Program-made: the position numbers and the translations under genes
IMG/VR virus record: IMGVR_UViG_3300022072_000020
Coordinates: 1 to 46,775 of that record
Length of the DNA: 46,775 nucleotides
Origin: a virus
Direction: 5' to 3' (one strand)
The notes under the pieces: generated by a model
Database searches by the model: none
The model's input: the letters and a program-made list of their open reading frames with translations, nothing else
What the model was told of the DNA's origin: nothing
Shown here: in pieces, positions 9,038 through 41,408 of the stretch
How the letters are laid out: each line of letters opens with the position of its first letter
Position numbering within the stretch: position 1 is the stretch's first letter

Positions 9038-12000
9038 ATGCCTGAAATTAAAAATACTTTCAATCAAGGTAAAATGAATAAAGACCTTGATGAAAGATTA
9101 ATTCCAAAAGGACAGTATAGAGACGCTTTAAATATCAGCGTTGCAACTTCTGAGGGATCTGACGTTGGTACTGTTCAAAATATCATGGGTAACTCTAGGG
9201 TAGACTCTTTAAGTTCAGGTGGAACTTGCGTTGGAAGTATTTCTAATGAATTAACGAATAAACTCTACACGTTTGTTAAAATGCTTGACAGAGATGTTAT
9301 TGTAGAGTATGATAAATCTGATGCACCTTACTCAGCTAGTTCATTTATAGCTGTAGACTTAGGTGGTGAAAATGCATTTCTAAAATTTACAGGTAAGCAA
9401 GTTACAGGTGTAAATATTATTGATGATTTTCTATTTTGGACAGACGGAGATTCTGAACCAAAAAAGATAAATATCGAGGAGACACGTCATAAAGAAAATC
9501 CTACTAATATAAATTTACACTCTAGATTATATATAGATGGTGAAGATAAAGGGTTTTTAACAGAAGATTACGTTACTGTTATAAAAAAGAAGCCTAGTAT
9601 AGCTCCTACGTATAAAATGAATTCCGCTATTGAAGATGTGAATTCCGCTATTTTTGAAAAAATATTTCCAAGATTTTGTTTTAGATATAAGTACAGAGAC
9701 GGGGAGTATTCCGCTATGGGTCCGTTTACAGATGTAGTATTCAATTCCGAATATGATGATGGGATTAGTTCGCTAAACTCTTATAGTACAGACGAACCGT
9801 ACAACAAGACTATGACAAACGTTATAAAGTCTATAGATCTGTATGATTTTGTACCCTCCGATATACCTAAAGATGTAGTTCAAGTAGATCTTCTTTACAA
9901 GCAAGAAAACTCTAATGTAGTTTATTCTATAGATAATATAAAGTATACAGATTCAGAATGGAGTAAAGCGGGTTCTGGTCAACTAGCTACAAACATATTA
10001 CCAGCAGGTACGCCTAGTGAGCTTGTAACGTTTGGAGAAGTGTCAGCGCATAAGGGAAAGTATAATATATCGACAGAGAGTATACACGCGGCTTTACCTG
10101 AAAACCAACTGCTTAGACCATGGGATAATGTGCCTAGATCCGCTTTAGCTCAAGAAATTGTTGGTAATAGAATAGTGTATGGCAATTACACTCAAGGTTA
10201 CAACTTCGGTAAAGACATCGATGGCAACTTCTTAAAACCAAACGTGTGGTCTGGTTTTGAACTTAGAGAGACTCAAGATTTCAGTGAAGGAGGATTAAGA
10301 TCTTTAAAGTCAAAGAGAGATTATCAAGTTGGAGTTGTATTCGGTGATAAATATGGTAGAGAAACACCTGTTTTCACTTCTAAAAAAGGTGTGAAAATTG
10401 ACTGGAGAAATCCTGAGTTAGGGTTAAACGCTAGCAACTCTAACATGTTCAAGGCATATATAGATTTAGAGCCCGCTGATTGGATTGATTACTATAAGTT
10501 TTATATAAAAGAAACTTCTGGGGAGTACTACAATCTTATCATGGATAAAGCTTATACCCCGCCTAGACACGTGGACTTTCACGATGATAACAATCACTTG
10601 TGGTTATCATTCGCCTCTTCAGATAGAAATAAAATCGTAAAAGAGGATTTTATAACAGTAAAAAAGATATTTAATAATAGTTTATCTACACAGCCTTTAT
10701 TTGATAACAAATACAAAGTTTTAGATATAAGTAATGAAGCTCCAGAGGCTATTAAGTATACGTTCTCTCCTTTAGGTAGAGTAGTAAATAATTTCGATAA
10801 ATTAGCCGGGTACGGCTATAACGATTCTGGAACTTTGGATAATGAGGGCGTGGAAGATCAATCTATATTCTTAAACCCTGACGCTAGAATAGATAAAGAG
10901 GACACGCAAGATATAGAAATAAACGCAACAGGTTGGTTAATATCAGGAGTATTTGGATCTGATCTTTCTCAAGATTTCCTGGCATCAGGCAGTAACAAAG
11001 TATTTATATCATGGGAAAAACACGGTACTCATTCTAAAAGATATAGGATTTCTAGTGTTACGAGAGCGCAAAGCGCAGTTAATACTGCCGGTATTTATCA
11101 CATAAAACTATCTAGTAAAATATCCGCTATAGACGCTAACATAGCTAAAGACCCTAATGGTGACGACTGGTTGTTACATGAAAATTTAACGTTTAAAACT
11201 GAAAGGAGAGATGAAATACCTGGTGAAGATTTTAGTGGTAAATTTTTTGTAAAAATAAAAACAGCTGTAAACTTATTAATAAACGAAGACTCTTCTTTAG
11301 AAAGTCAAAATTACGCGGTCACTTCACAACAGATGTATTGGCTATATAGTGCATATAATACATCTGATAATGATGAAACGTCAGGTCTAATTAACACTAT
11401 TGATCCTGGGGAGCCAGATGGTACTCAATATCCAACAGACATAACACCAGGGTGTGAACCTATACACTGGAGTAATTTATTTGATGTTCTTGACGAGTCT
11501 GACAAAAAGTCTTTCTTTATAGATAACTTGCCTTTCATAGCGTCTAATCCATCTGCGAGTTCTTACGCTAAAGAGTCTGGCGAAGGATGGTTTGGGGCTC
11601 AGACTTATTATCGTAAGTTAGAGTGGAAAAAGCACATAGGCCCATGGAAAGGTGTCTCATATGACGACAATAACAGTTTGCTTAATTTAGCGTTATCAAT
11701 ACACGGTAAAGAATGGCAAGGGCCTTTATTCGGTATGTCTGACGATCTTTTCAACGATGGTGATAATGTAGTTGACGGTTTTGAAAACTTAGAATTACAA
11801 GGTGGTGGAGCTAATTTAGGAGACTGGGAGAACTCTCAGACTAGTGATATGGATTACTACACTTGGCGTGTGAGTAGAAGCGCAGGCGGAAGAGGTGTTA
11901 CCCCGACTGTTTACTTAGCGCAGGGTGACGGTGCGGGACATAGAATTATAAACGGTTTAGAGGGGATCATGACTTCCACGGTTGAGCATACATCATTGTG

Positions 12001-15000
12001 GAGACGATGGAACGTCAATACTATATACCATGCAGACATTGATGTAGACAATACTTACGGTACTTCAAATAGTGATATAGGTAAACATTATATGCATCTT
12101 TCATTCTTAGGTCCTGGTGAAGATCTTATTGATTTGGGTAATGCCACTAGTATAATAAACGACTTAGGGGTAACTAGTCTCGTTGGTAAAGATAGTATAG
12201 CCAGCAAATTACAAGGTATATGGGGTGGAGGTATATTCAATTTACTTCCTACCGCGTCTCAAGGAACAGGGCAAGATACTGCTTTTCCACCTAGTCTTTC
12301 AACAACAGGTGAAAACGCTATTAGTCCAGTTATCGCAGCTTCGGAAGCTGATGGGATACGTATAATGGAGTTTGAAGGGAATTACGATGAAGTAACTGGA
12401 ATAGGTAGAGCGCTTACCCCTAGCGAACTCCAAGGGCAAGGGTATGATGATAGTTATCAGAATTTACATTTAAACCAGTGGAGACCTGAGATCAGCCCGT
12501 CTGGATTAGACACTGATATTCAGTTTTTTGTAAGTCAACTCGAGGAAGGTAACAGGTTTATATTCAAAGATGATCCTGGTAAAATTGTATATACTATACA
12601 AAAGGTTCGTACTAAACACATATACAACCATACGTCATGGAGAATGAGGTGGATATACGACGGAGATGATTATAAAAACGCTGACACCGTTGATTATCCC
12701 CTTAGCGTAGAGGAAGCGGCTAGCGCGTGGGCGAATTCCGTAGCGGTTGATGCAAACCAAACAATTACAGGTGAAGATACTACCGCAACCCAAAATCTTA
12801 TTGAAGCGTTAGAAAACTTTGGGGCAAGACATAATAGGAGAACGTGTTACATAATTGAGCTTGATAAAAACCCTACAGAACAAGGTTACAATCCTGGCGC
12901 TCCGACATTCTCGGTTGATGATGATACTTTTACAAACATTGAATTCTTACACCCAGAGACAAATGTTGAAAACGTTCTTACCACTTTACAGAGTTACCCT
13001 GCTATTTGGGAGACAGAGCCTCAACAACTAACCGATTTAAACATATATTACGAAGCTAGTAGCAATATACCAGTTAGATTAACAAGTGAAAACGCAGAGA
13101 TTTTTGCACCTGTAGGATGCAGAGTGGTTTTAGTAGACGATTTAGGGTTAGAGGTCCCAACTTTAGATGAAGGTAGGATTCCTGGAGAAGCAGGTATATT
13201 TGATTACAACGCCAATAGGCGTATTACAAACTGGATCATTGATGCCGGTGATTTTAATAGCAATCAGTATAACTCATCCGCTGCAAATACAATTTTTAGT
13301 GGTGATGAGTTTGCTGCATTTGAATTAAATTATAACTTTCCACACGATGGTGCCGAAGAAGAAAACAGCACAACAGCAGCAGCTTTAGCTGATGAAGTAG
13401 GCGACCCAGTCGCTGTTAAGTTTATACGAGAAAACGGTAGTTATACTACAGCTAAAATAAAATGGTTTAAGCAATTCTCTGAGCCTGGGGTATTCGATAA
13501 AAGAATTTGGCTTATAAATAAAGATCTAGATCTTTCTCTTGACACGGGATTAAGTTGGTACAATTGTTTTTCTTTTGGAGACGGTATAGAATCTAATAGA
13601 ATTAGAGACACTTTTAACGAGATGCAGATCACAAATGGTGCTCGAGCGTCTTCAACATTAGAAGAGCCATATGCAGAAGAGCACCGCAAACATGGGTTAA
13701 TTTATTCTGGTATATATAATTCTAACAGTGGTATAAACAACCTTAATCAGTTTATCCAAGCAGAAAAGATAACCAAAGATTTAAACCCTACATACGGAAG
13801 TATTCAAAAGCTATTCACAAGAAGCACTGATTTAGTTGCTATGTGCGAAGATAGGGTTTTAAAGATATTAGCAAATAAAGACGCTGTCTTTAACGCGGAT
13901 GGAAACCCTCAACTTGTAGCCACTGAAAACGTCCTTGGACAAGCTGTGCCTTTTGTAGGGGATTATGGTATATCTAAGAACCCTGAGTCTTTTGCTTCTG
14001 AATCATATAGAGCTTATTTTACAGATAAACAAAGAGGTTCAGTCCTTAGACTTTCTATGGACGGATTAACACCTATCTCAGACGCAGGTATGCGTGATTG
14101 GTTTAGAGATAATTTAAGTGAATACAATATAGCGCTTGGTAGTTATGATGACTATAGCAAGCATTATAATCTTACGCTAGACAACTATCCCGTAGATACT
14201 TCGAATTTACTAACTAGCTCTAATGTTGATCAAGGCACAGAGTTAGTAACATATCAAAACGATGTTAATCATTTTCAAGACAGCTTCCCTTTAACAGGCG
14301 TGGATTTAATTCCATCTCCTCATAATATCAATGAAACTTGGCAGAGCCACTACAATCACTGGGGTATCCCGGATATACCGGTTAACCATTCGTTTATCCC
14401 GTTAAAAAACATGTCGTTAAACTCATCGACAGCTATTACTCATCATCCAGCTATACCCAAAGGGCATTTTGTTGAGGCTGTAGAGGGTCAAGATTTTGTG
14501 GGTGAAGCGTTTGGTGAATTTCTGCAAGCGCCTATCATAGATACACCATATGATTCTTTTAACGCTCCGTATTCTGCTAGGTTTAATCTTAACGCTCAAG
14601 AAGTGGTTGCAGACATAGGCGCTTTTAGTTTGGGAAATAATATATTTATAGAGAATCACGGTAGTGGAACTCCTCTTATGTACGCTAGTAGATTTTTTAC
14701 TAGCGCGGATGGAGTTGAAACCACTTACGATGGGCCTCCGGACGCACCAGCGTCTAATACGTTACCCGCATTTGTAGGTTCTATATGGAGACTAGAAAAT
14801 CAAGACAACGACGAACCGGGTGGAATTGTTTTTTCACCAGAAGGTAGTAGTTTTCTGAGTGGGGCTGGTGTAGGAACAGCTATCGATGGTGGATTAAAGT
14901 ATTCTGTAAATATACTAGATAGCTACGTTGACTCACCTATTACTGATTTAACGCACCAGGTGTCTGACGACATTATAGCAAGTTTTCCCGAAGCGACATC

Positions 15001-18000
15001 TAAAACTATATTTAACGGAGAGGAAATAGCTATATATTTCACAACCGGCGTTTTTAATATAACTGACCCGTTTTTTCAGCTAGCTGATGGGTTTAACATG
15101 TTAATAGAGCTATTTGATGGTGAAGAGCCAGTTGACCCAGAGATAATAGCGCCTTTAGGGGACACGCAGTTTGGAAATGCTAACTATATACTTAATAACT
15201 TAACAGATAGCCCTTATGAAGCTCATCACATGCTATTTACGGATTGGACTGGTTACAGCAACGGTAATCCAGACATAGCTTTTGCAGGTGATTACGTTAT
15301 GGGGTGGCAGAGTAATAACGAAGTGCTTTTTCCAGCAATTTGGGCTTTCGTGCCTGGTGTTTATGAAGCAAACGATGAAAACCCTGTACATGGTTCACCT
15401 ACGATGAACTCTGCCGCTTGGAAGTTTTCAGATGGCACTACTCAGGATAGCGTTTTAATAGAAAACCTAGTCGTTAAATTGAGTCTTGTAACTAAACCTA
15501 GCGCCGTTTCGACAAAGTACAGTATATATGTAAACGAGTTTAAACTAGTAAAACCGCATAGCCTTATAAACCCCACGGGTATAGAGGGTCAAGATTTTAT
15601 ACAAGAAGTGAATCCTATCCCATATCGTGATATTCCCGCTTGGGCAGAGGTTAAACATGGGGACGGTAGTGGAGGTATTTTAGGTTGGACCGGTGACGTT
15701 GAAAATAACGGCACTAATCTAATCGATTTTGTTTGGACTAATCAAATTATATATGGAAGACAAAATCTAGGCCAATCGAACACAGAATACGAAGCAGGTG
15801 GGTTAGGTGAATTTGGTGCTCAACATACATATTACTCCCCTACGATTAATGAAGAAACTGGTGAGTATAATGCTGTAAACGAACCGCTACAAGACGGAGG
15901 CGCAATAACTAATTTTGGTGATCACATCGATTTAAGCGATCAACCAGTACCACCTATACCGGGAGAGCAACCCGATCCGTTTGTTAGCATACATGAGGTC
16001 TCTGGTGACAACACGGGAGGTGCAACAGACTCTGCGACACGGATAGAAGTTGATGCAGATAGTACAGCTATCATCTCTCAAGATATTTCCGATAATCCTC
16101 TTGAAAACGGTAATTGGTACTTATTAGATATATCGTATCAACCAGTAGTTGACGATATAGACGCTAATTCTGATGTTAGTTTATTAAATTGTATACCTAC
16201 TGGTTTAATACCCGAGTCTCCTATAGATCAGGATAGTGGTGATCCATCATATCCTTATGGGTATTTTGGAGAAATAAAACCTAATGGTAATTTAAGATTA
16301 CTATCAACAACAAGAACCGAATACGATACCACCGCAGTAGTGAGTAACGTTATTAGATGCATATTCCAATATCCATTTGGATTCCCACCCCTCGAAGAAA
16401 TTAAAATTGCGATAACTAAGCACGATTATGCTAAAGCTATAGACAGTATACGGTTAATAAATATAACAAATCTTACCACTGGCGGAAAAGCAGACAGTTG
16501 GATTACTCCACCAAGTAATTACTTAGGAAGTTCAGATGTTCAAATACCTCCAATCACTTATAATTTATTTGATCAACCAGAGGTATACTTTAAAAATGGA
16601 GCTATTGAGTGGAACACAACGCAAGGCCCTGGTCACGAAAAGTTTATATACCAGAATATTTCACCTAACTTCCCAATGGATAACCCAAACCCAACCCAGC
16701 CATATGAGTTTTCATTTACTATAATCCCAGTTTCAAGTCTTGATATTCAAGGGTCTTTAGCAGGTTATGTTACAGGTAATACGGAGGACGTTGAAGTTGA
16801 TGGTGTTACATCTATCTTGACGCATGGGTTTGGTTTTAATAATTTAACGCAACCTGGAGATTATGTAATCAAAGGTAACATGCTCTCTTATTCTGGAAAT
16901 CCCATATCTGTATTTCTTAATGGTGAAGAAGTAAGCGCCGCAGATGTATTGGCTGGTGATATAAATGGTTTTATTTACAGCGCGTCCACGTTCGCTGAAG
17001 ATGAAAGCTCACCTCTTGGAAATCCTAGAAAAGTGTTTTTTGAACCTGAAGAAAATGGTTTTACGGGCGCCATTAAAGATATTGCTTTACGTGACACAAC
17101 AAACTACTTTACAGGAGGTACAGTGGATTCTTGGAATATAGTGTTTAGTACATCTTTCCAAAATCTCTTGTTCTGGGAAGAAGATCCCGCTGGTGGTGGC
17201 CGTATACGTTTCGAGGGACTCAGAGCTGTATGGGGTAATATCAACCAAAATATAGGTCACATACACACAAATCAAGAGGTTAGACTTTCTTTTGACTGCG
17301 CTCTTGATAACGGTTTTATAGCTGGATATTATTATAATGAAGACGGTAAGGGTTTTGTATTCCAAACCGATATAGAAGCTAACGTATCTTTTGAGCAAGA
17401 CTTCTTTATAGGTACTTCTACTAACGACGATCCAGATAACCTAATAAATACGGTGGTTATAACTTCAGGTTCAAATGATAAAGCTCTTGAGTTGAGAGGT
17501 ACTTTAGATAATATAACTCTAAATAAGATTTTTAGATTAGAAAATTCTACAACAGTTAGTTTTAATGAAGACGTAAGAGGTTGGGAAAGTTTTAAATCTT
17601 TCGTACCAGAAAGTGGTGTTAGTTTATCAAATCAATACTTCACTGTTAAAAACGGTGAACTGTGGCAACATTACACTAACGAAACTAGAGGTTCGTTTTA
17701 CGGAGAGCAATATGAAGCGTCTGTTACGGCTATATTGAATGAAACCCCTTCATCTATAAAGAGTTTTAACACTATAAATTACGAGGGTTCACAAGCTATG
17801 GTTAAAGCTTTCGCTAAAGCTGAAAATTCAACAGCTACGACGCTATCTACCTATAACGCTTTTACCAACGACCGCTTAGGCTGGGAGATGGAGTCTTTTG
17901 AAACAGATCTTCAAAAAGGTTTTATAAGTGAATTTATAGAGAAAGAAGGTAAATGGTTTAATTATATAAAAGGATCAAGGCTTTCCACTGAAAATATTGA

Positions 18001-18052
18001 TACAGCTAATTTCAATTTTCAAGGTTTAGGTATAGTTTCATCAACGCATTAA
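9038..18052 (+). CDS. Giant tail nozzle/stabilisation-type virion protein
   Basis: At 3004 aa this is the longest gene in the window, about 19 percent of it. Residues 1 to 35 (KNTFNQGKMNKDLDERLIP, then GQYRDALNISV) resemble the first strand of the beta-propeller in P22 gp10 / T7 gp12-type nozzle proteins, and about the first 650 residues plus residues about 1480 to 1720 look like this structural core. The rest is beta-rich with many aromatic and acidic residues. Two segments with the pattern TGGxxDSW at about residues 2480 and 2690 and two EGQDF segments at about 1816 and 2183 point to duplicated, possibly carbohydrate-binding modules. No enzyme motif was recognised. The protein probably closes the tail and carries receptor-facing domains. 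The reading frame is intact throughout. Confidence 0.62.
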   Translation: MPEIKNTFNQGKMNKDLDERLIPKGQYRDALNISVATSEGSDVGTVQNIMGNSRVDSLSSGGTCVGSISNELTNKLYTFVKMLDRDVIVEYDKSDAPYSASSFIAVDLGGENAFLKFTGKQVTGVNIIDDFLFWTDGDSEPKKINIEETRHKENPTNINLHSRLYIDGEDKGFLTEDYVTVIKKKPSIAPTYKMNSAIEDVNSAIFEKIFPRFCFRYKYRDGEYSAMGPFTDVVFNSEYDDGISSLNSYSTDEPYNKTMTNVIKSIDLYDFVPSDIPKDVVQVDLLYKQENSNVVYSIDNIKYTDSEWSKAGSGQLATNILPAGTPSELVTFGEVSAHKGKYNISTESIHAALPENQLLRPWDNVPRSALAQEIVGNRIVYGNYTQGYNFGKDIDGNFLKPNVWSGFELRETQDFSEGGLRSLKSKRDYQVGVVFGDKYGRETPVFTSKKGVKIDWRNPELGLNASNSNMFKAYIDLEPADWIDYYKFYIKETSGEYYNLIMDKAYTPPRHVDFHDDNNHLWLSFASSDRNKIVKEDFITVKKIFNNSLSTQPLFDNKYKVLDISNEAPEAIKYTFSPLGRVVNNFDKLAGYGYNDSGTLDNEGVEDQSIFLNPDARIDKEDTQDIEINATGWLISGVFGSDLSQDFLASGSNKVFISWEKHGTHSKRYRISSVTRAQSAVNTAGIYHIKLSSKISAIDANIAKDPNGDDWLLHENLTFKTERRDEIPGEDFSGKFFVKIKTAVNLLINEDSSLESQNYAVTSQQMYWLYSAYNTSDNDETSGLINTIDPGEPDGTQYPTDITPGCEPIHWSNLFDVLDESDKKSFFIDNLPFIASNPSASSYAKESGEGWFGAQTYYRKLEWKKHIGPWKGVSYDDNNSLLNLALSIHGKEWQGPLFGMSDDLFNDGDNVVDGFENLELQGGGANLGDWENSQTSDMDYYTWRVSRSAGGRGVTPTVYLAQGDGAGHRIINGLEGIMTSTVEHTSLWRRWNVNTIYHADIDVDNTYGTSNSDIGKHYMHLSFLGPGEDLIDLGNATSIINDLGVTSLVGKDSIASKLQGIWGGGIFNLLPTASQGTGQDTAFPPSLSTTGENAISPVIAASEADGIRIMEFEGNYDEVTGIGRALTPSELQGQGYDDSYQNLHLNQWRPEISPSGLDTDIQFFVSQLEEGNRFIFKDDPGKIVYTIQKVRTKHIYNHTSWRMRWIYDGDDYKNADTVDYPLSVEEAASAWANSVAVDANQTITGEDTTATQNLIEALENFGARHNRRTCYIIELDKNPTEQGYNPGAPTFSVDDDTFTNIEFLHPETNVENVLTTLQSYPAIWETEPQQLTDLNIYYEASSNIPVRLTSENAEIFAPVGCRVVLVDDLGLEVPTLDEGRIPGEAGIFDYNANRRITNWIIDAGDFNSNQYNSSAANTIFSGDEFAAFELNYNFPHDGAEEENSTTAAALADEVGDPVAVKFIRENGSYTTAKIKWFKQFSEPGVFDKRIWLINKDLDLSLDTGLSWYNCFSFGDGIESNRIRDTFNEMQITNGARASSTLEEPYAEEHRKHGLIYSGIYNSNSGINNLNQFIQAEKITKDLNPTYGSIQKLFTRSTDLVAMCEDRVLKILANKDAVFNADGNPQLVATENVLGQAVPFVGDYGISKNPESFASESYRAYFTDKQRGSVLRLSMDGLTPISDAGMRDWFRDNLSEYNIALGSYDDYSKHYNLTLDNYPVDTSNLLTSSNVDQGTELVTYQNDVNHFQDSFPLTGVDLIPSPHNINETWQSHYNHWGIPDIPVNHSFIPLKNMSLNSSTAITHHPAIPKGHFVEAVEGQDFVGEAFGEFLQAPIIDTPYDSFNAPYSARFNLNAQEVVADIGAFSLGNNIFIENHGSGTPLMYASRFFTSADGVETTYDGPPDAPASNTLPAFVGSIWRLENQDNDEPGGIVFSPEGSSFLSGAGVGTAIDGGLKYSVNILDSYVDSPITDLTHQVSDDIIASFPEATSKTIFNGEEIAIYFTTGVFNITDPFFQLADGFNMLIELFDGEEPVDPEIIAPLGDTQFGNANYILNNLTDSPYEAHHMLFTDWTGYSNGNPDIAFAGDYVMGWQSNNEVLFPAIWAFVPGVYEANDENPVHGSPTMNSAAWKFSDGTTQDSVLIENLVVKLSLVTKPSAVSTKYSIYVNEFKLVKPHSLINPTGIEGQDFIQEVNPIPYRDIPAWAEVKHGDGSGGILGWTGDVENNGTNLIDFVWTNQIIYGRQNLGQSNTEYEAGGLGEFGAQHTYYSPTINEETGEYNAVNEPLQDGGAITNFGDHIDLSDQPVPPIPGEQPDPFVSIHEVSGDNTGGATDSATRIEVDADSTAIISQDISDNPLENGNWYLLDISYQPVVDDIDANSDVSLLNCIPTGLIPESPIDQDSGDPSYPYGYFGEIKPNGNLRLLSTTRTEYDTTAVVSNVIRCIFQYPFGFPPLEEIKIAITKHDYAKAIDSIRLINITNLTTGGKADSWITPPSNYLGSSDVQIPPITYNLFDQPEVYFKNGAIEWNTTQGPGHEKFIYQNISPNFPMDNPNPTQPYEFSFTIIPVSSLDIQGSLAGYVTGNTEDVEVDGVTSILTHGFGFNNLTQPGDYVIKGNMLSYSGNPISVFLNGEEVSAADVLAGDINGFIYSASTFAEDESSPLGNPRKVFFEPEENGFTGAIKDIALRDTTNYFTGGTVDSWNIVFSTSFQNLLFWEEDPAGGGRIRFEGLRAVWGNINQNIGHIHTNQEVRLSFDCALDNGFIAGYYYNEDGKGFVFQTDIEANVSFEQDFFIGTSTNDDPDNLINTVVITSGSNDKALELRGTLDNITLNKIFRLENSTTVSFNEDVRGWESFKSFVPESGVSLSNQYFTVKNGELWQHYTNETRGSFYGEQYEASVTAILNETPSSIKSFNTINYEGSQAMVKAFAKAENSTATTLSTYNAFTNDRLGWEMESFETDLQKGFISEFIEKEGKWFNYIKGSRLSTENIDTANFNFQGLGIVSSTH

Positions 18053-29498: not shown

Positions 29499-30536
29499 AT
29501 GAAAAAAGTAATTGCATTATTAGCGTTTTTGCTGTGTATAGCAAATGTAAATGCTCAACAATTAAAAAAAGCTTTTAAGTTCGCTACGTTCTACACAGCT
29601 GTAAATGGTGGAAACTCTATATCAGATCAAACTATATACTCTGTGGCTAACGGCTTAGGTTCTACTGAAGTTGAGACACCATACGATTATAGCTTAACTA
29701 TGGGTTTGCGTAAGATTGCTAGATTTGGTTATGAAAATAGAGCTAATGTTTTTTATGACGGAACTGAAGAGTCTTGGTCAGACGGTGCTAACATAGGCAA
29801 GCGTAACGGCTTAGAGTTTTTAGCTGAGGTTAAATACAAAAGGCAGATGGGTCAAGAGTTTCTTGATCAAAACCATTTCTTAAGATATGTAGGAGATAAT
29901 TACATTGTTAAAGGAGAGTATCTACAAGATGGCTTTGCAGACATCTCCTATTTTGAAGCGTCAGAAAGATATAGATTAAAATTAGGGAAAAAGTTTTCTT
30001 TTAATATAGGTGTAGCTCAAAGATTATCTGAACCATATGGTTTTAATCCTTTAGAAGAGTGGTTACTAGACAACAACAATATACACTACACATATCTAGC
30101 CTTGCAAGAAGGATACACTGTTGATGTGTCTAACGAAGAGTATTTTAGTCCTAATGGCGAATCAGTAGCGTTAAGCTCAGAGGTTTGGGAAGCGGTGGTA
30201 ATACCAAATGTTATATCAGATTATGTAGGTAGAAAGAGAGACGAATTGAACAACCTACTTCAGCTGTCCGTAGTGGCTGGATTTGATTTTTACCATTATA
30301 CGGATGAGTTTTGGTTGCACGCGTGGGGTAACGTTATGCCGTACCATTATGATAACGGAAACGAATTCATGTACCACAACTCAGTTGGTGGTCAATGGCT
30401 TGATTATTCTGGTGGTCTTATATTAGGTTATAGGATAAACAAACACCTAGGATTATTCACTGAAGGCAAGTATAACAAGTACTGGAACAGGGAGTGGTAC
30501 AACTTTAAGTGTGGTATAAACTATGTAATCTTCTAA
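29499..30536 (+). CDS. Exported outer-membrane-barrel-like protein
   Basis: Residues 1 to 20 are a clear Sec signal peptide (two lysines, a hydrophobic core, and an NAQ cleavage site typical of Bacteroidetes). The mature 325 residues alternate polar and aromatic residues in strand-like stretches, have many Y, F, W and N, and end in YVIF. A terminal aromatic residue on a final amphipathic strand is the mark recognised by the BAM machinery, so an outer-membrane beta barrel is likely. It begins seven bases after the giant virion gene. I recall relatives in uncultured marine phages but no known function. Options are a barrel that blocks the receptor or otherwise excludes a second phage, or help in release. 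A virion role is less likely given the signal peptide. Confidence 0.62.
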   Translation: MKKVIALLAFLLCIANVNAQQLKKAFKFATFYTAVNGGNSISDQTIYSVANGLGSTEVETPYDYSLTMGLRKIARFGYENRANVFYDGTEESWSDGANIGKRNGLEFLAEVKYKRQMGQEFLDQNHFLRYVGDNYIVKGEYLQDGFADISYFEASERYRLKLGKKFSFNIGVAQRLSEPYGFNPLEEWLLDNNNIHYTYLALQEGYTVDVSNEEYFSPNGESVALSSEVWEAVVIPNVISDYVGRKRDELNNLLQLSVVAGFDFYHYTDEFWLHAWGNVMPYHYDNGNEFMYHNSVGGQWLDYSGGLILGYRINKHLGLFTEGKYNKYWNREWYNFKCGINYVIF

Positions 30537-31182: not shown

Positions 31183-31467
31183 ATGGCTAAAGAATTAAAC
31201 GAGGACACGGGGTTTCAGATAAGTGTAAAAACACTCATCGGTATAGGTTTTGGAATGGCCACTATTATTAGTATGTGGTTTATGTTACAGGCTGATATAG
31301 CTGAGGCAAAAGAACTACCAGAGCCACTACCTCCTGAGATATCACGCATGGAGTTTGATATGAAAGATCAACTTGTGCGTCAGACTATTATGAGCACTCA
31401 GGAAGACGTTAAGGAGATAAAAGAGGATCTGGATAATATAGAAAGAAAGATAGATGATTTAAAATAA
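31183..31467 (+). CDS. Single-pass membrane protein with C-terminal coiled coil (holin- or spanin-like?)
   Basis: Of the 94 residues, about 17 to 36 form one hydrophobic transmembrane helix (LIGIGFGMATIISMWFMLQA). It is followed by a proline-rich bend (ELPEPLPPEI) and a strongly charged heptad-type coiled coil to the C terminus (EDVKEIKEDLDNIERKIDDL). It lacks a signal-peptidase site. One membrane anchor with a long coiled coil close to the endolysin gene would fit an inner-membrane spanin or a class III-type holin, but similar proteins of unknown function occur in many phages. It lies in the envelope-directed segment, 12 bp before the exported thioredoxin-like gene. Confidence 0.5.
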   Translation: MAKELNEDTGFQISVKTLIGIGFGMATIISMWFMLQADIAEAKELPEPLPPEISRMEFDMKDQLVRQTIMSTQEDVKEIKEDLDNIERKIDDLK

Positions 31468-31478
31468 AATATAATATA

Positions 31479-31847
31479 ATGGAGAATTCAATGAATTTTA
31501 AAACAGTAGTAGTTTATGCTTTAATTATGCTAGGGGCATTATTGAGCGGGACTGCTTTTGGACAAAACCTATGTGGCAGCGATATTTGCGTTGTACAGTT
31601 TAACGCCAGTTGGAATACCAGCAACAACGTTGACTATCTTGGAGAATTAACCGACTGCGAGGTTATGAATGTGAGTATAGATCAAGGTACATACCAATCT
31701 GATTACGGAATAGTAGTTGTACCTACTATTATAGTCTTCAATGGGAAAGAGGTGGAGAGGTTTCAAGCTAACATTATGATGCAGCTGGAAGCTACTAGAA
31801 AGCAAGTTCAGTCGGTTATTGATGAAGTAATTTATAGCGATTTTTAA
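31479..31847 (+). CDS. Exported thioredoxin-like protein without catalytic CXXC
   Basis: After a signal peptide (hydrophobic core, ending AFGQ) the protein has the thioredoxin strand VVQFNASWNTSN and the strand and cis-proline VVVPTIIVFNGKEV, with spacing as in a thioredoxin fold. The tryptophan of the WCxxC site is present (W45), but both catalytic positions are asparagine (N46 and N49), so it should not catalyse disulfide exchange by the usual route. A separate cysteine pair (C32 and C37) lies just before the first strand. An internal ATG at 31491 has a GGAG six bases upstream and begins the signal peptide more typically (MNFK), so it may be the true start. I recall relatives in marine phages. 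The next gene encodes a cysteine-rich exported protein, a possible client. Confidence 0.62.
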   Translation: MENSMNFKTVVVYALIMLGALLSGTAFGQNLCGSDICVVQFNASWNTSNNVDYLGELTDCEVMNVSIDQGTYQSDYGIVVVPTIIVFNGKEVERFQANIMMQLEATRKQVQSVIDEVIYSDF

Positions 31848-31848
31848 C

Positions 31849-34002
31849 ATGAAGAATAAAGCTTATTTATTAGTAGTAGCTTTTTGGCTCATTATTGGGT
31901 CTGTACTAGGTCAAGATAGTTGGGTTAAAGTATCCGTACAGACAGATGATTACGGAGGAGAAACATCTTGGGAGATATATCAAGCATCAGAGGTTGTTGC
32001 GGTTAGCCCTCCTTATGTTAGTAACTCTTTACAAGAAGTTGTAGTACCTCTTGACCCAGGAGATTATAACTTTGTTATATACGACTCTTTTGGAGATGGT
32101 ATTTGCTGCGACTTTGGGCCTGGGTGGTACTCTTTAACCAACTCTTGTGGGTTAGAGATATACGATTACGAGTTTGCTGGTCCTTCGACTACAACGGTTT
32201 TTGAAGTTTCGGATTGCGAGGCGCCTGTAGCTGGATGTATGGATATAGGTGCTTTAAACTTCAACCCGTGGGCTAACGATCAAGCGCCATGTGTATTTCC
32301 ACCTATGCCTTGTGGACCTGACCAAACAAACATTATAGCTTTAATTACACCTGATAGCTATCCATCTGAAACAAGCTGGGATATAACCGCTAATGGTGAG
32401 ATTATAGCTTTTGGAGGAAACGAGGGTAATACGGGGGTAACATTACCCTCGTACGTGTGTACAGGTGTAGGAGACACCCTTGTTGCAAGCGTGTATGACA
32501 CATACGGGGATGGGTTATGCGGAACTTGTTGGGGTGGGGTAGACGGGTACTTCAACGTCACAACTTTATGCGGTGATAGTATTTTTGCCATAGGTGGAGT
32601 TGAGCAGTTTGACACCGCGTCTTCGGGGCCTTACATAGTCCCACCTTGTATACCAGTGATACCCCAAGGTTGCACAGACTCAAATTACCTAGAGTATAAT
32701 TCAGAGGCTATAATAGATGACAATAGCTGCTTAACCGAGGTTGTTTTAGGGTGTACGCAAGAGGAAGCGTTGAATTATGATCCTGTCGCTAATACTATAG
32801 AGACTGAACCGTCATGTGATTACTCATTAGTGATTACAGACGGTGGAGCAGATGGTTGGTTTGGTAGTTGGTTAGGCCTAAAACAAGGTGATAACTTGTA
32901 TGGACCATATCAAATGGGTCCTAATGATGGACATGAAGAGGAGTTTAACTTAACCTTAAACTCCAATGAAGATGTAAGTGTTTATTTTTTCACAAGTGGT
33001 AACGCTGAAACAACAGCTGCTCAGTGTGGGTTTAGAATTGAAGGTCCTAGTGGAATAGTGCTCGAGAGTGGAACTAACCCTTGGACTGATCCATTAAAAA
33101 AGTTTCCTTATATATATACCGGTACACCTGTTTGTTCTGACTATTGCATACTACCTGTCGTAGGTTGTATGGATAATTTAGCTTGTAATTATAATAATGA
33201 AGCTAACATAGACGAAGGTTGTTTTTATTCCGTTCAATACTATGATTGTGACAACGCTTGTGATAATGACGTGGATAATGATGGTGTTTGTGATGAACTC
33301 GAAGTGGTTGGATGTATGGATCCAACAGCATTTAATTATAATATTCTAGCAACTGATGTAGGTGATTGCGAACCGTTTATATTTGGTTGTACAGACCCAA
33401 CACAATATAACTATGATCCAGAAGCTAACACAGAAAATGGTGGCTGTATTCCTTACGTTTACGGTTGTACTGATAGTAATGCCTTTAATTATGATCCGCT
33501 GGCTAACTCTGACAACGGTTCTTGCATTGAAATCTTGGAGGGTTGTGCAGACCCCGAAGCTTATAACTATGACACAGCGGTTAATATACCTGATCCGGAA
33601 GTCTGTCTCTACGAAGCGGTAGGATGTGTCACTGGACTAGGTGAGCCATATGGCGATGGTTATTGGCTCAACAACATGTGCTTCGCGTGGGTTATACAAG
33701 TTGACCCATATTGCTGCGAAGAGGATTGGGACGCTGTATGTCAAGAGACATTTGATTATTGTTCAACAACTAGTATAGAAGTTGCATTAACTGAACACGA
33801 CTTAGTGGTATACCCTAACCCAGTTAAAAATATATTAAGCATAAACAAAAACGTCGACATAGACGTATTTAATTCATCTGGAGGTATGATAATATCTCTT
33901 AAAAATGTTAACACGTTAGACGCGTCTCTATGGGTTTCAGGGGTATATATAATGCATATAACACACAACAACTTTAGGGTAACTAGAAGGGTTGTTAAAT
34001 AA
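31849..34002 (+). CDS. Secreted cysteine-rich repeat protein with T9SS C-terminal sorting domain
   Basis: The 717-aa protein has a signal peptide (MKNKAYLLVVAFWLIIGSVL, then GQ). Two related beta domains follow, at about residues 24 to 120 and 160 to 250, each with a YDSFGDGICC-type or YDTYGDGLCG-type turn. Then come about eight Cys repeats of the form GCTDPxAxNYDPxANxDNGSC (for example GCTDSNAFNYDPLANSDNGS, then C) and a DVDNDGVCDELE calcium-type loop. Residues 653 to 717 have the features of a type A T9SS sorting domain: VYPNPVKN, a strand DVFNSSGGMI, LWVSGVYIMHI, and a basic end VTRRVVK. Such domains direct Bacteroidetes proteins through the outer membrane to the cell surface. All elements are known from flavobacterial surface proteins; finding them in a phage late gene is unusual. 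Its role is unknown. Confidence 0.78.
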   Translation: MKNKAYLLVVAFWLIIGSVLGQDSWVKVSVQTDDYGGETSWEIYQASEVVAVSPPYVSNSLQEVVVPLDPGDYNFVIYDSFGDGICCDFGPGWYSLTNSCGLEIYDYEFAGPSTTTVFEVSDCEAPVAGCMDIGALNFNPWANDQAPCVFPPMPCGPDQTNIIALITPDSYPSETSWDITANGEIIAFGGNEGNTGVTLPSYVCTGVGDTLVASVYDTYGDGLCGTCWGGVDGYFNVTTLCGDSIFAIGGVEQFDTASSGPYIVPPCIPVIPQGCTDSNYLEYNSEAIIDDNSCLTEVVLGCTQEEALNYDPVANTIETEPSCDYSLVITDGGADGWFGSWLGLKQGDNLYGPYQMGPNDGHEEEFNLTLNSNEDVSVYFFTSGNAETTAAQCGFRIEGPSGIVLESGTNPWTDPLKKFPYIYTGTPVCSDYCILPVVGCMDNLACNYNNEANIDEGCFYSVQYYDCDNACDNDVDNDGVCDELEVVGCMDPTAFNYNILATDVGDCEPFIFGCTDPTQYNYDPEANTENGGCIPYVYGCTDSNAFNYDPLANSDNGSCIEILEGCADPEAYNYDTAVNIPDPEVCLYEAVGCVTGLGEPYGDGYWLNNMCFAWVIQVDPYCCEEDWDAVCQETFDYCSTTSIEVALTEHDLVVYPNPVKNILSINKNVDIDVFNSSGGMIISLKNVNTLDASLWVSGVYIMHITHNNFRVTRRVVK

Positions 34003-34008
34003 TAAATC

Positions 34009-34479
34009 ATGGATAAAATAAGTGATCATATAAGTTATACAGAAGCCACTCGTAGCAATACGGCTTTACGTAGAGGTATAGATAATATACCAGATGTAGA
34101 CGAGTTAGAAAATATGAAGCTTATAGCTGAAAAAGTGTTTGAACCGCTAAGAAAATGGGTTGGAGGTCCGGTTAAAATAAATAGTTTCTATAGATCGCCA
34201 GAGTTAAACATGGCGATTGGAGGTAGTAAAAAATCCCAACATTGCCACGGTCAAGCTATAGATATAGATGACACTTTTGGAGGTAAGTTTACAAACTTAA
34301 ACGCAGAAATGTTTAAGTATATAAGATATCACCTTAATTACGATCAAATAATATGGGAGTTTGGTGATGACGATAATCCAGCTTGGATTCACATTAGCTA
34401 CGTTAACGAAGATGATAACAGGCAAAGATGCTTAAAAGCATATAAAGAAAAAGGTAAAACAAAATATAAAGTAATATAA
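34009..34479 (+). CDS. Endolysin, M15-family peptidase (D-Ala-D-Ala carboxypeptidase type)
   Basis: The 156-aa enzyme has the M15 zinc site: SQHCHGQAID (S76 to D85, with H78 and D85 as ligands) and the later WIHIS with H128 as the third ligand. The upstream segment VKINSFYRSPELNMAIGG is the usual strand and arginine leading to the site. M15 peptidases cut peptide cross-links or D-Ala ends in peptidoglycan, and single-domain versions serve as phage endolysins. It has no signal peptide, so release would need a holin or another membrane-damaging partner, perhaps the membrane protein at 31183-31467. It starts six bases after the T9SS-sorted gene and ends one base before the first of three tandem paralogues. 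Length and motifs are normal for the family. Confidence 0.85.
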   Translation: MDKISDHISYTEATRSNTALRRGIDNIPDVDELENMKLIAEKVFEPLRKWVGGPVKINSFYRSPELNMAIGGSKKSQHCHGQAIDIDDTFGGKFTNLNAEMFKYIRYHLNYDQIIWEFGDDDNPAWIHISYVNEDDNRQRCLKAYKEKGKTKYKVI

Positions 34480-34480
34480 C

Positions 34481-34900
34481 ATGGCAACAACAACAGCTAC
34501 AATTACGCTATCAAGTACTGACTTGTTGTCAGACGAGTTAGCTTTAACAACCACATCCACATTAACAAAAACCGGTACTGCAACAGGTGTAGAACACACG
34601 TCTGGCTTAGCAAGTAAAACAATTACATCAACCGCTAAGGGAACAGCTTCGGGGCAAGTTACTTTGTACACAGCGGATGATTTCGCGGCTATTCCGTATC
34701 TATATGTTAAAAACTCAGCTACTACAGCTGGGCATAAAATATTTATATATGACGATAGCACAAGCGGTGATCCTCTTCAGTTTCAGCTAGACGCAGGTGA
34801 TTGGGGTTTCATACCTATGCATGGAGATAAAACATATAAAGCTTACGCTACAAACAATCCTACTAAAATGGAGTTTATGGTAATAGGTCAAGATCAATAA
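34481..34900 (+). CDS. Small virion-type protein, paralogue 1 of 3
   Basis: The 139-aa product begins MATTTATITLSSTDLLSDEL and has a YLYVKN strand and a DAGDWGFIP segment. The same landmarks (MATT start, K/Y-V/I-Y-V/I-K/R-N strand, GGDW or AGDW followed by a proline) appear in the next two genes, so the three are divergent tandem duplicates. Composition is T, S, A and K rich and almost all beta. No enzyme motif or signal peptide is present. Proteins of this type are common in marine phage structural regions, and a decoration or fibre-associated role is likely but not shown. The start is the second base after the endolysin stop. Confidence 0.55.
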   Translation: MATTTATITLSSTDLLSDELALTTTSTLTKTGTATGVEHTSGLASKTITSTAKGTASGQVTLYTADDFAAIPYLYVKNSATTAGHKIFIYDDSTSGDPLQFQLDAGDWGFIPMHGDKTYKAYATNNPTKMEFMVIGQDQ

Positions 34901-34925
34901 ACAATAAACAACTAAATAAATAATT

Positions 34926-35339
34926 ATGGCAACAACAACAGCAGCGGTAACGCTAACAAGTGATTTGCTATCAGATGCAATGTCAGTAACTGCAAGTACA
35001 ACTTGTATGAAAGCGGGTACTACAGCTGATGGTTTGGATCAAGTAGAATATGCAGTAGTAGAGATAGCTACTGGAGATGAATATGATTTAATTTGCACTA
35101 CTCCAACAGCAAGTAAAGCAAGTAAACTTTACGTAAAAAATCATTCAATAGATGAAACTTACTACGTAGCGGTCACACAAAACGCGCAAGCTATAGGTAG
35201 GTTATACGGTGGAGACTGGATGTTTATTCCAGCTGATTTTCATGACGCGGCTGCAGATATAGCAGTAACATCAAATGGTGGAACAAATAAAATAGAATAT
35301 GCTCTTTTTCACGAAGGAACAGCTTTAACTACTACTTAA
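34926..35339 (+). CDS. Small virion-type protein, paralogue 2 of 3
   Basis: The 137-aa protein begins MATTTAAVTLTSDLLSDAMS, which is close to paralogue 1. It has KLYVKN in the middle and IGRLYGGDWMFIP near the C terminus, the latter shared closely with paralogue 3. The sequence just upstream and across the start (AAATAATTATGGCAACAACA) is nearly identical to that before paralogue 3, so leader and start were duplicated along with the gene. The beta-rich, low-charge composition fits a surface or fibre-bound virion protein. No function can be assigned from motifs. Confidence 0.55.
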   Translation: MATTTAAVTLTSDLLSDAMSVTASTTCMKAGTTADGLDQVEYAVVEIATGDEYDLICTTPTASKASKLYVKNHSIDETYYVAVTQNAQAIGRLYGGDWMFIPADFHDAAADIAVTSNGGTNKIEYALFHEGTALTTT

Positions 35340-35362
35340 TAACGATTTAAAAAGAAATAATT

Positions 35363-35788
35363 ATGGCAACAACATGCACAATAAATATATCTTCCGATGC
35401 AGCCCCAGGTTTTGGCGGCGTTAGCGAATCAATGACATTGACTCAAGCTGGCACAATTATAGATATAGATAGCACAACGGGTTTTCAAAGGAGAAAACTA
35501 TCAGCTACAGGAGCTGTAGATTTAATTACTATGGCTAGCGAAAACATAGAACCTAAAGACAGTGTAGCTTCAAAAGTGTACATTAGAAATATAGGAGATG
35601 GTAAAGGTAATATCGACAAAACCGTAGGTGTTACGATAGGGGTTAACGCTGAGCCTATTGGTAAACTCTACGGAGGCGATTGGATGATGATGCCTTTAAC
35701 ATGCATCGACGCTGATGATGTCACAGCAAATCCAGCTACAGATGATACTGTGGTTTTAGAGTTTGTGATGTTCTACGAAGAAGCTTAA
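35363..35788 (+). CDS. Small virion-type protein, paralogue 3 of 3
   Basis: The 141-aa protein begins MATTCTINISSD and contains KVYIRN and IGKLYGGDWMMMP, the two blocks shared with paralogue 2. The middle differs more (an insertion around NIGDGKGNIDKTVGVTIGVN) and the C terminus is acidic (FYEEA). It lies 23 bp after paralogue 2 and 7 bp before the next small gene. As with the other copies, there is no signal peptide and no catalytic motif. Three diverged copies in a row suggest subunits of a hetero-oligomer or stepwise adaptation of a surface-exposed protein. Confidence 0.55.
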   Translation: MATTCTINISSDAAPGFGGVSESMTLTQAGTIIDIDSTTGFQRRKLSATGAVDLITMASENIEPKDSVASKVYIRNIGDGKGNIDKTVGVTIGVNAEPIGKLYGGDWMMMPLTCIDADDVTANPATDDTVVLEFVMFYEEA

Positions 35789-40319: not shown

Positions 40320-40578
40320 TATCTTCTAGTTCTTCGCGTGCTGCTTGGATATACAGTATTGCATCCATAAGCTCTTCTTGTATATCGTTTAGATAACCAG
40401 CTAAGTCTTTATGACCTCCTGTTCTCTCTGTATGTAATGTACGTCCATACTTTTTAAAACCTATATCAGATCGTTGTATAAACTTATCACATACATTCTC
40501 AACTACTGGATCTCGAAATGTTACTAATTTCCTAGTCCAATCAGCTGTTTTAGCATTCATTATTTCTCTATCGCTCAT
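40309..40578 (-). CDS. Small helical phage protein, possibly MazG-like
   Basis: The 89-aa protein contains KFIQRSDIGFKKYGRTLHTE and then YLNDIQEELMDAILYIQAAR. The E-E-x-x-D arrangement on a long helix resembles the metal-binding helix of all-alpha NTP pyrophosphatases (the MazG and dUTPase-like group). I recall this pattern (RS..G..KYG, then D.QEELMDA.LY) in many marine phages under unknown-function labels. It overlaps the upstream gene by four bases (ATGA). That upstream gene itself ends in a MazG-like domain, so the two may act on the same nucleotide pool. Catalysis is not shown. Confidence 0.55.
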   Translation of the reverse strand: MSDREIMNAKTADWTRKLVTFRDPVVENVCDKFIQRSDIGFKKYGRTLHTERTGGHKDLAGYLNDIQEELMDAILYIQAAREELEDNGS

Positions 40579-41408
40579 AGTGTGTCTTTTACAAATGTTC
40601 CATTAACCATTTTACCTGTGCGTTTGCTTATAACATCATAAGCTTCGTCAATGCAGTTTTCGATATGCGTTCCACCTAGTTCAGCTAGGTTTGTAAGTAC
40701 TACAACCATATCTCCGATAGCATCTATGAACTCAATGGTGTCTTGTTTTAGTATAGCTCTACCAAGTTCCCCAGCTTCTTCCATAAGCTTTAAATACTGA
40801 GTTTTAGTATCACCAGCCTCGTATAAACCTCTTTCAATAGCCCAAGTTCTAATTAAATCGAAGCGGTTTAAAGATCCAACATTGAGATTTAGACCTTTAC
40901 CATGACCACTCATATTTAACGCACCGGTATTTGTTCTACAGCAATTATTATTGTCAAAGTACCTAGCAAATGCCTTGTTATATACGTAACACCTATCGCT
41001 ATTGTACATTGACGGTTTAACGTTTTTCATGATCCACTTCACTGAGTCAGGGTCAAGACAGCATCTACCATGCTCCGTCTCCCAACTCATACCTAGCTCA
41101 TCCATTAACCTGCCTTTAAGCTTATTAACTGGGCATGGGAAAGTTGTTGTTTGTTCTGTTATGTTTATTTTCATATGGTTTAATTTTTCATTTTTGGGTT
41201 TTAAATCTTTATACAGCTTGTGATCTACTCTATAACCAAATAGCTTTTGTAATTCAATCTCTCTGTTAGAGATATAGCTAATGTCGTCAGACATATCCAG
41301 TATTTCATATTCATCTTCTGTATAACCTTGTTGTCGTGTAACTCTTTCTTCCAGGTTGTTTGTTACACCGATTTTTTTACCTGGTATATGGTATATGCAG
41401 TATGTCAT
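40575..41408 (-). CDS. GIY-YIG-like / MazG-like nucleotide pyrophosphohydrolase fusion
   Basis: The 277-aa protein has three parts. Residues 1 to 70 resemble a small GIY-YIG nuclease core: CIYHIPGKKIGVTNNLEERV, with the invariant-type arginine, and later a REIELQKLFGY helix. The second tyrosine of the usual signature is a lysine, so activity is uncertain. Residues 75 to 190 are a linker domain with several cysteines and no family I can name. Residues about 195 to 277 resemble MazG: LKLMEEAGELGRAI (ExxE), then DTIEFIDAIGDMVVVL with the second acidic pair. MazG-type enzymes hydrolyse NTPs or dNTPs to monophosphates. It sits between a hydroxymethylase-like gene and an 89-aa possible MazG-like gene and overlaps both by four bases. 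Confidence 0.68.
   Translation of the reverse strand: MTYCIYHIPGKKIGVTNNLEERVTRQQGYTEDEYEILDMSDDISYISNREIELQKLFGYRVDHKLYKDLKPKNEKLNHMKINITEQTTTFPCPVNKLKGRLMDELGMSWETEHGRCCLDPDSVKWIMKNVKPSMYNSDRCYVYNKAFARYFDNNNCCRTNTGALNMSGHGKGLNLNVGSLNRFDLIRTWAIERGLYEAGDTKTQYLKLMEEAGELGRAILKQDTIEFIDAIGDMVVVLTNLAELGGTHIENCIDEAYDVISKRTGKMVNGTFVKDTL

Follow-up and report, generated by a model that had tools for sequence, protein, structure and literature searches.

The type IX secretion system (T9SS) cargo protein analyzed here is encoded within a conserved four-gene cassette, which consists of an outer-membrane β-barrel, an inner-membrane coiled-coil protein, a periplasmic thioredoxin-fold protein, and the T9SS cargo. 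Whereas phage-encoded T9SS cargo is of a known kind, this conserved cassette is new. The sequence-only reading had described a lone cargo gene and missed the four-gene envelope cassette as the actual unit. The cargo is very likely exported to the host surface by the T9SS of the host. The full explanation that we propose, a T9SS-exported cargo of an envelope-wide cassette with surface masking or exclusion as its function, has in our estimate a probability of about 0.5. The window, the whole stretch of DNA that was analyzed, is an IMG/VR virus record of 46,775 bases with the following features:

29499..30536, plus strand: outer-membrane β-barrel of 345 aa with signal peptide and 12 predicted strands (model pLDDT 80.8)
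31183..31467, plus strand: inner-membrane single-pass protein of 94 aa with a C-terminal coiled-coil-like tail (from the alignment; hydrophobic segment at residues 13-31)
31479..31847, plus strand: periplasmic thioredoxin-fold protein of 122 aa with NxxN in place of CxxC (profile match to thioredoxins)
31849..34002, plus strand: T9SS cargo protein of 717 aa with signal peptide, three β-domains, Cys-rich repeats, a small helical Cys domain, and a type A sorting domain
31849..31911, plus strand: signal peptide of the cargo, residues ~1-21 (from the sequence, a model helix at 2-19, and a hydrophobic segment at 3-23)
33310..33606, plus strand: main GC-D-NYDP Cys-rich repeat block of the cargo, residues 488-586 (same repeats in Flavobacteriales proteins)
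33808..33999, plus strand: T9SS type A sorting domain of the cargo, residues 654-717 (TIGR04183 and fold matches to 8glk_D, 7pq4, 8glj, and 8gl8)
34009..34479, plus strand: endolysin-like M15 peptidase, a neighbor and not a cassette member (phrog_894 endolysin, PF08291)

Origin of the Record

The record stems from an uncultured podovirus whose kin are phages of Flavobacterium, Maribacter, and Cellulophaga. Among the matches listed, its portal protein shows 42-52% identity to those of MW202828, Maribacter phage Panino, and the Flavobacterium phages elemo, with Cellulophaga and Tenacibaculum phages among the further matches. The record starts inside the large terminase gene, of which only the C-terminal quarter is present (117-665, covering positions 569-753 of phrog_6681), and is therefore incomplete. 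These portal and terminase relatives bear out the assignment to a phage made earlier. That the cargo gene belongs to a phage genome follows from the phage genes of the record, portal and terminase among them, and from synteny in independent records. It had also been called a late gene, and its position agrees with this: it lies on the same strand as its neighbors, with gaps of a few bases, between the structural genes and the M15 endolysin. Late timing would follow from this position.

Some other genes of the window and its relatives deserve mention. A 277-aa protein (40575-41408) appears by eye to join a GIY-YIG-type N-terminus to a MazG-like C-terminus. Three tandem paralogue-like genes (34481-35788) encode MATT...-type proteins of 139, 137, and 141 aa, and the cluster of such proteins reaches 94 copies across 47 related loci. 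The portal genes of two related records (G046:C1:9387-11780 and G050:C1:38976-41366) contain one in-frame TAA each.

The Cargo Protein Carries a T9SS Sorting Domain

The open reading frame of the cargo was confirmed exactly as first read. Its hydrophobic N-terminus ends in GSVLGQ, and sequence and hydropathy reveal such an N-terminus, consistent with a Sec signal peptide, in the window cargo and nearly all of its homologues, in support of the signal peptide already proposed. About eight repeats had been counted by eye, and we located eight GC-x-D...NY(D/N)...C repeats, which begin at residues 129, 274, 301, 439, 488, 513, 539, and 565. The number of β-domains needs correction: instead of two, the structural model contains three, and three DxxGDG-type motifs are found at residues 79, 217, and 331.

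This AlphaFold model was built with 42 homologues and reaches a mean pLDDT of 75.7, while its pTM of 0.36 means that the arrangement of the domains is not predicted. It comprises three β-sandwich domains, the repeats, the small helical Cys domain, and the C-terminal domain (pLDDT mostly 80-91). With the exception of the C-terminal domain, Foldseek returned no convincing whole-domain match for the β-domains. The cargo matches none of the PHROG structural families, and no enzyme domain was recognized in it.

The C-terminus had been read as a type A sorting signal, and both sequence models and fold agree. TIGR04183 (Por_Secre_tail) matches residues 654-717 with an E-value of 8.6e-10 and 38.5 bits (cut-off 23), and PF18962 matches the C-terminus with 38.6 bits (cut-off 27). 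In a search of the whole record, the cargo is the single TIGR04183 match, at 33808..33999 with 45.1 bits. The concern that no sorting-domain model would recognize this protein is thereby removed. The predicted C-terminal domain superimposes on 8glk_D (NucA) with a Foldseek probability of 1.00, a TM-score of 0.72, and an rmsd of 2.6; further matches are 7pq4 (RgpB), 8glj (FspA), and 8gl8 (RemZ). The matched T9SS cargo domains (8glk_D) were solved inside the translocon (PMC10994853).

The repeats resemble those of large Flavobacteriales proteins, with about 45-62% identity over the repeats. Proteins of ~2,800 aa bearing cargo-type Cys-rich repeats are encoded at L020:3635-12076 and L021:3563-12025, the latter of which is related to the 3004-aa structural-region protein of the window (9038-18052). 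Apparently, the repeat is able to enter structural-region proteins of phages.

The Cargo Gene Is Part of a Four-Gene Cassette Found in Many Phages

A search for homologues in other phage genomes had been suggested earlier. Many were found in other phage contigs of IMG/VR, but no full-length relative is present in a set of 50,697 phage records, in which the cargo gave repeat matches only. In IMG/VR, cargo relatives adjoin relatives of three neighbors in the window, namely the barrel, the 94-aa protein, and the thioredoxin-like protein. All four genes, on one strand, are present in 50 of 50 loci found via the barrel that extend at least 5 kb to each side, and 32 of the 34 testable loci found via the 94-aa protein also contain the full set. 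The gene orders (loci L002-L188) are three rotations of one circle, always on a single strand: barrel-94-aa protein-thioredoxin-like protein-cargo, cargo-barrel-94-aa protein-thioredoxin-like protein, and 94-aa protein-thioredoxin-like protein-cargo-barrel.

The barrel is encoded by at least 576 stretches in IMG/VR and the 94-aa protein by at least 469, and none of the three partners has a match in the 50,697 phage records. Relatives of the window portal occur in 35 of the 50 cassette records, with identities from 71 down to 22%. The other 15 lack one; any single record may be a fragment, but contigs of 105-156 kb are among them, and complete cassettes include contigs above 100 kb without the window-type portal. 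One large portal-less cassette contig encodes DnaB-like and UvsX-like proteins as well as DNA polymerase. Because 15 records are portal-less and several of these are large, the cassette seems to be shared between phage lineages. TIGR04183 matched in none of the three portal relatives that were checked. No full-length relative was found among the cultured kin, so phages of this type can in general do without the cassette.

Matches to the three partners are nearly absent from bacterial genomes. Among 84,980 genomes of bacteria and archaea, only six barrel loci turned up, almost all of them labeled as metagenome-assembled genomes (MAGs). Their bins are as different as Nitrosopelagicus and Maricaulis, in which contigs carrying the cassette or the barrel (L103 and L106) are very probably mis-binned phage. 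The cargo N-terminus of one MAG locus (L105) is nearly the same as that of a 158-kb viral contig (L133), so the cassette loci in MAGs are probably binned phage contigs. A host assignment via these MAGs is unreliable, since the bins named above cannot all be hosts.

Cargo and barrel distances between loci are correlated (Mantel r 0.69, reached by none of 999 permutations), as expected for partners, a pattern that shared descent also yields.

The Partner Proteins

The model of the barrel resembles porin-like folds at Z-scores of 10-11.5. No Pfam or NCBIfam family matches the barrel, and neither PorV nor PorP/SprF was detected by Pfam in 71 barrel members or by NCBIfam in two. On sequence, we rejected an identity as PorV or PorP for lack of a match to these family models. 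As to fold, 12 strands are predicted here and FadL-like barrels have 14; FadL is among the weak Foldseek matches, and other porins fit best. PorV and PorP structures are absent from the fold matches listed, which is no proof of their absence. A sequence search of the PDB gave no match for either the barrel or the 94-aa protein.

The topology of the 94-aa protein, a transmembrane segment near the N-terminus followed by a coiled-coil-like tail, fits that of an i-spanin. PHROGs and Pfam contained no matching spanin family, only a weak lipoprotein PHROG (E 0.01). The sole PADLOC match, a weak similarity of its C-terminal stretch to PbeC (E 0.0024), was taken as chance.

The profile of the thioredoxin-like protein matches 2vim_A with an E-value of 5.1e-7, and Pfam Thioredoxin is found on nine of 11 members (E up to 0.1, best 7.4e-6). 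At the CxxC position, 156 of 166 members have NxxN, nine carry other non-cysteine pairs, and one falls outside the pattern. With both active-site cysteines lost, redox activity is not expected of this protein, which might serve in binding or as a chaperone.

Two Kinds of Sorting Tail

TIGR04183 scores above cut-off in 28 of 50 sampled cassette records. Among 119 cargo reading frames with both ends in the locus, 86 carry the long domain, three carry no tail of either kind, and 30 end in a short tail of about 40 residues with the motif DxLGRP...KNKLLFYIYDDGTVEKK. The consensus of this short tail has matches in 33 of the 79 genomes sampled from the order of one Flavobacteriales MAG, with up to 45 proteins per genome; according to their listed sizes, the genomes concerned (G067, G080, G092, G109, G125, and others) are each 2.0 Mb or smaller. 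SprA is encoded in all nine short-tail Flavobacteriales genomes tested, and in five of five the long TIGR04183 domain occurs alongside, with 42-64 copies per genome. The short tail thus sits on proteins of SprA-positive bacteria, so that the tails of the phage cargo match those of T9SS-positive bacteria. It is probably a signal related to known short C-terminal domains. Both cargo tails would then be addresses in the host's own code, which the short tail on phage cargo supports. Such a sorting-like tail in small-genome Flavobacteriales has apparently not been described so far. In Prevotella intermedia, said to be the sole species reported with both kinds, short C-terminal domains are predicted to bind PorV (PMC11969387). 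They likewise represent sorting signals, of ~45 residues, next to long ones in the same genome, but the motif found here differs, occurs in Flavobacteriales and phages, and has a putative sorting function.

Conservation and Variation of the Cargo Gene

Since the sorting domain and the repeats are typical of hosts, the gene could in principle be a chimera in which assembly joined phage with host DNA, as the earlier reading had cautioned. This possibility is practically nil. Five other IMG/VR records contain this gene at 82-85% identity, with the local gene order preserved, and the complete set of four was found in 144 of the 182 loci examined, many of these loci being partial. The dN/dS ratio of the cargo against close relatives is 0.12-0.16, indicating purifying selection; ratios are given for the cargo only, as dS was saturated in several comparisons of the partner genes. 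Independent assemblies contradict a chimera, and we rejected it.

Within the cassette, median identity is lowest for the cargo (0.43) and highest for the 94-aa protein (0.67), and the number of cargo repeats varies between phages, up to 26. The low identity and the variable repeat number fit an exposed protein.

Proposed Role of the Cassette and Alternative Explanations

The M15 endolysin starts 6 bases 3′ of the window cargo gene. Endolysin-like or holin-like genes lie within 3 kb of the cassette in 52 of 83 testable loci, a raw count that may include chance proximity; the holin-like two-TM family was called by topology only, and another holin family scored just below the Pfam cut-off. Lysis-type neighbors are also seen in phages without the window portal type, in several of which a peptidoglycan-binding amidase is located 12-32 bases from the cassette.

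According to our proposal, the products of the cassette would act together and occupy every envelope layer: inner membrane, periplasm, outer membrane, and surface. The cargo, whose gene lies close to those for lysis, would be produced late in infection and cross the inner membrane by means of its signal peptide. Its C-terminal domain would then guide it through SprA, after which PorV would leave it on the cell surface. This route corresponds to that of type A C-terminal domains, which carry their cargo across via SprA and exit together with PorV, followed by release or linkage to surface lipopolysaccharide (PMC10994853). Cargo and barrel would then most likely cover or replace surface structures, and a dying cell or fragments masked in this way would no longer be bound by other phages or by released progeny. 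Receptor masking around lysis is the role that we favor, and Llp of phage T5, a receptor-blocking protein of a lytic phage, provides a precedent (PMC9586334). Against it, simple receptor masking leaves the constant presence of an inner-membrane and a periplasmic protein unexplained, and the genes for Llp and other exclusion proteins of its kind have been described as early (PMC9586334), whereas the cargo gene looks late. The full explanation also has to accommodate a barrel that is not detectably kin to PorV or PorP/SprF by sequence and cultured relatives in which no full-length relative was found.

Because inner-membrane and periplasmic proteins are always included, the main rival is a role in lysis, in which the cassette acts as an outer-membrane lysis or exit stage, a stand-in for spanins that bridges or destabilizes the envelope after holin and endolysin have acted. 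One cassette member per envelope layer, the i-spanin topology of the 94-aa protein, and the frequent proximity to lysis genes agree with this idea. Spanins, however, can do without a T9SS cargo whose repeats are numerous and variable, no spanin family was matched in PHROGs or Pfam, the proximity count has the restriction given above, and replication and nucleotide genes among the cassette neighbors in some large phages indicate that the site is not purely one of lysis. We regard this role as rather unlikely. It is doubtful, but worth considering, that the four proteins form one envelope-spanning machine, the outermost part of which would be placed by the host T9SS, and which would perform or guard exit in a manner unlike known lysis or exclusion systems.

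The exported cargo might also be an adhesin by which infected cells stick to particles or uninfected cells, aiding transmission. Its Cys-rich repeats resemble those of large Flavobacteriales proteins and vary from phage to phage, and Bellas et al. have proposed a wider competition role for the cargo of Cryophage (PMC7468147), but three partner genes and the position in a lysis region would be left unexplained, which makes this option improbable. Still less credible is a virion component such as a tail or fiber, with the C-terminal domain merely a borrowed fold. The cargo gene does sit among structural genes, and its repeats recur in the two ~2,800-aa phage proteins mentioned above, one related to a structural-region protein of the window. 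Such a function is hard to reconcile with a signal peptide, a sorting-domain match that extends to the last residue, the occurrence of a second kind of tail that SprA-positive bacteria also have, genes for a barrel and an inner-membrane protein that are constantly linked to that of the cargo, and the lack of a match to PHROG structural families.

Comparison with Known Systems

The reading as a T9SS cargo, suggested for this DNA from sequence, is well backed by sequence models, by the fold, and by numerous homologues in other phage contigs; phage-encoded T9SS cargo as such has precedents (PMC7468147; PMC6949934). Cryophage (Bellas et al. 2020, PMC7468147) encodes three T9SS cargo proteins for which superinfection exclusion or competition between strains was suggested. 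As in our case, these phage genes carry type A sorting domains, are thought to use the host system, and vary between phages. They encode an endoglucanase, a GH39 hydrolase, and a PA14 protein, i.e. three variable genes of one phage, whereas here a single Cys-rich cargo without recognized enzyme domain belongs to a fixed four-gene cassette of many phages. In crAss-like phages, a BACON open reading frame also bears a T9SS sorting domain; it differs by its BACON repeats and its origin from gut phages, and the part of the report available to us describes no barrel, inner-membrane, or thioredoxin partners (PMC6949934). Type B cargo proteins and their PorP/SprF shuttles (PMC12618676, PMC9143113) share the linkage of a cargo gene to an outer-membrane barrel gene, but the cargo here has a type A domain or a short one, and its barrel is not PorP/SprF-like as far as sequence can detect. 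Llp of T5 is likewise a lytic phage protein sent to the envelope that stops further adsorption; it is a small lipoprotein of the periplasm that blocks FhuA, with no T9SS and no cassette (PMC9586334). Beyond the Cryophage and BACON reports, the cassette, its spread, and its linkage to lysis genes were not found in the libraries or in the accessible literature, outside of which lie most subscription papers and preprints. That the partners and full-length cargo are missing from the 50,697 phage records may explain why the cassette went unnoticed.

Taken together, the virus appears to rebuild the outer surface of its host around the time of cell exit. Carriage of T9SS cargo is a widespread, conserved feature of many uncultured marine Bacteroidota phages rather than the oddity of one glacier phage. 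Phage exit or exclusion would thereby be tied to a named host machine, by genes that can be cloned and tested.
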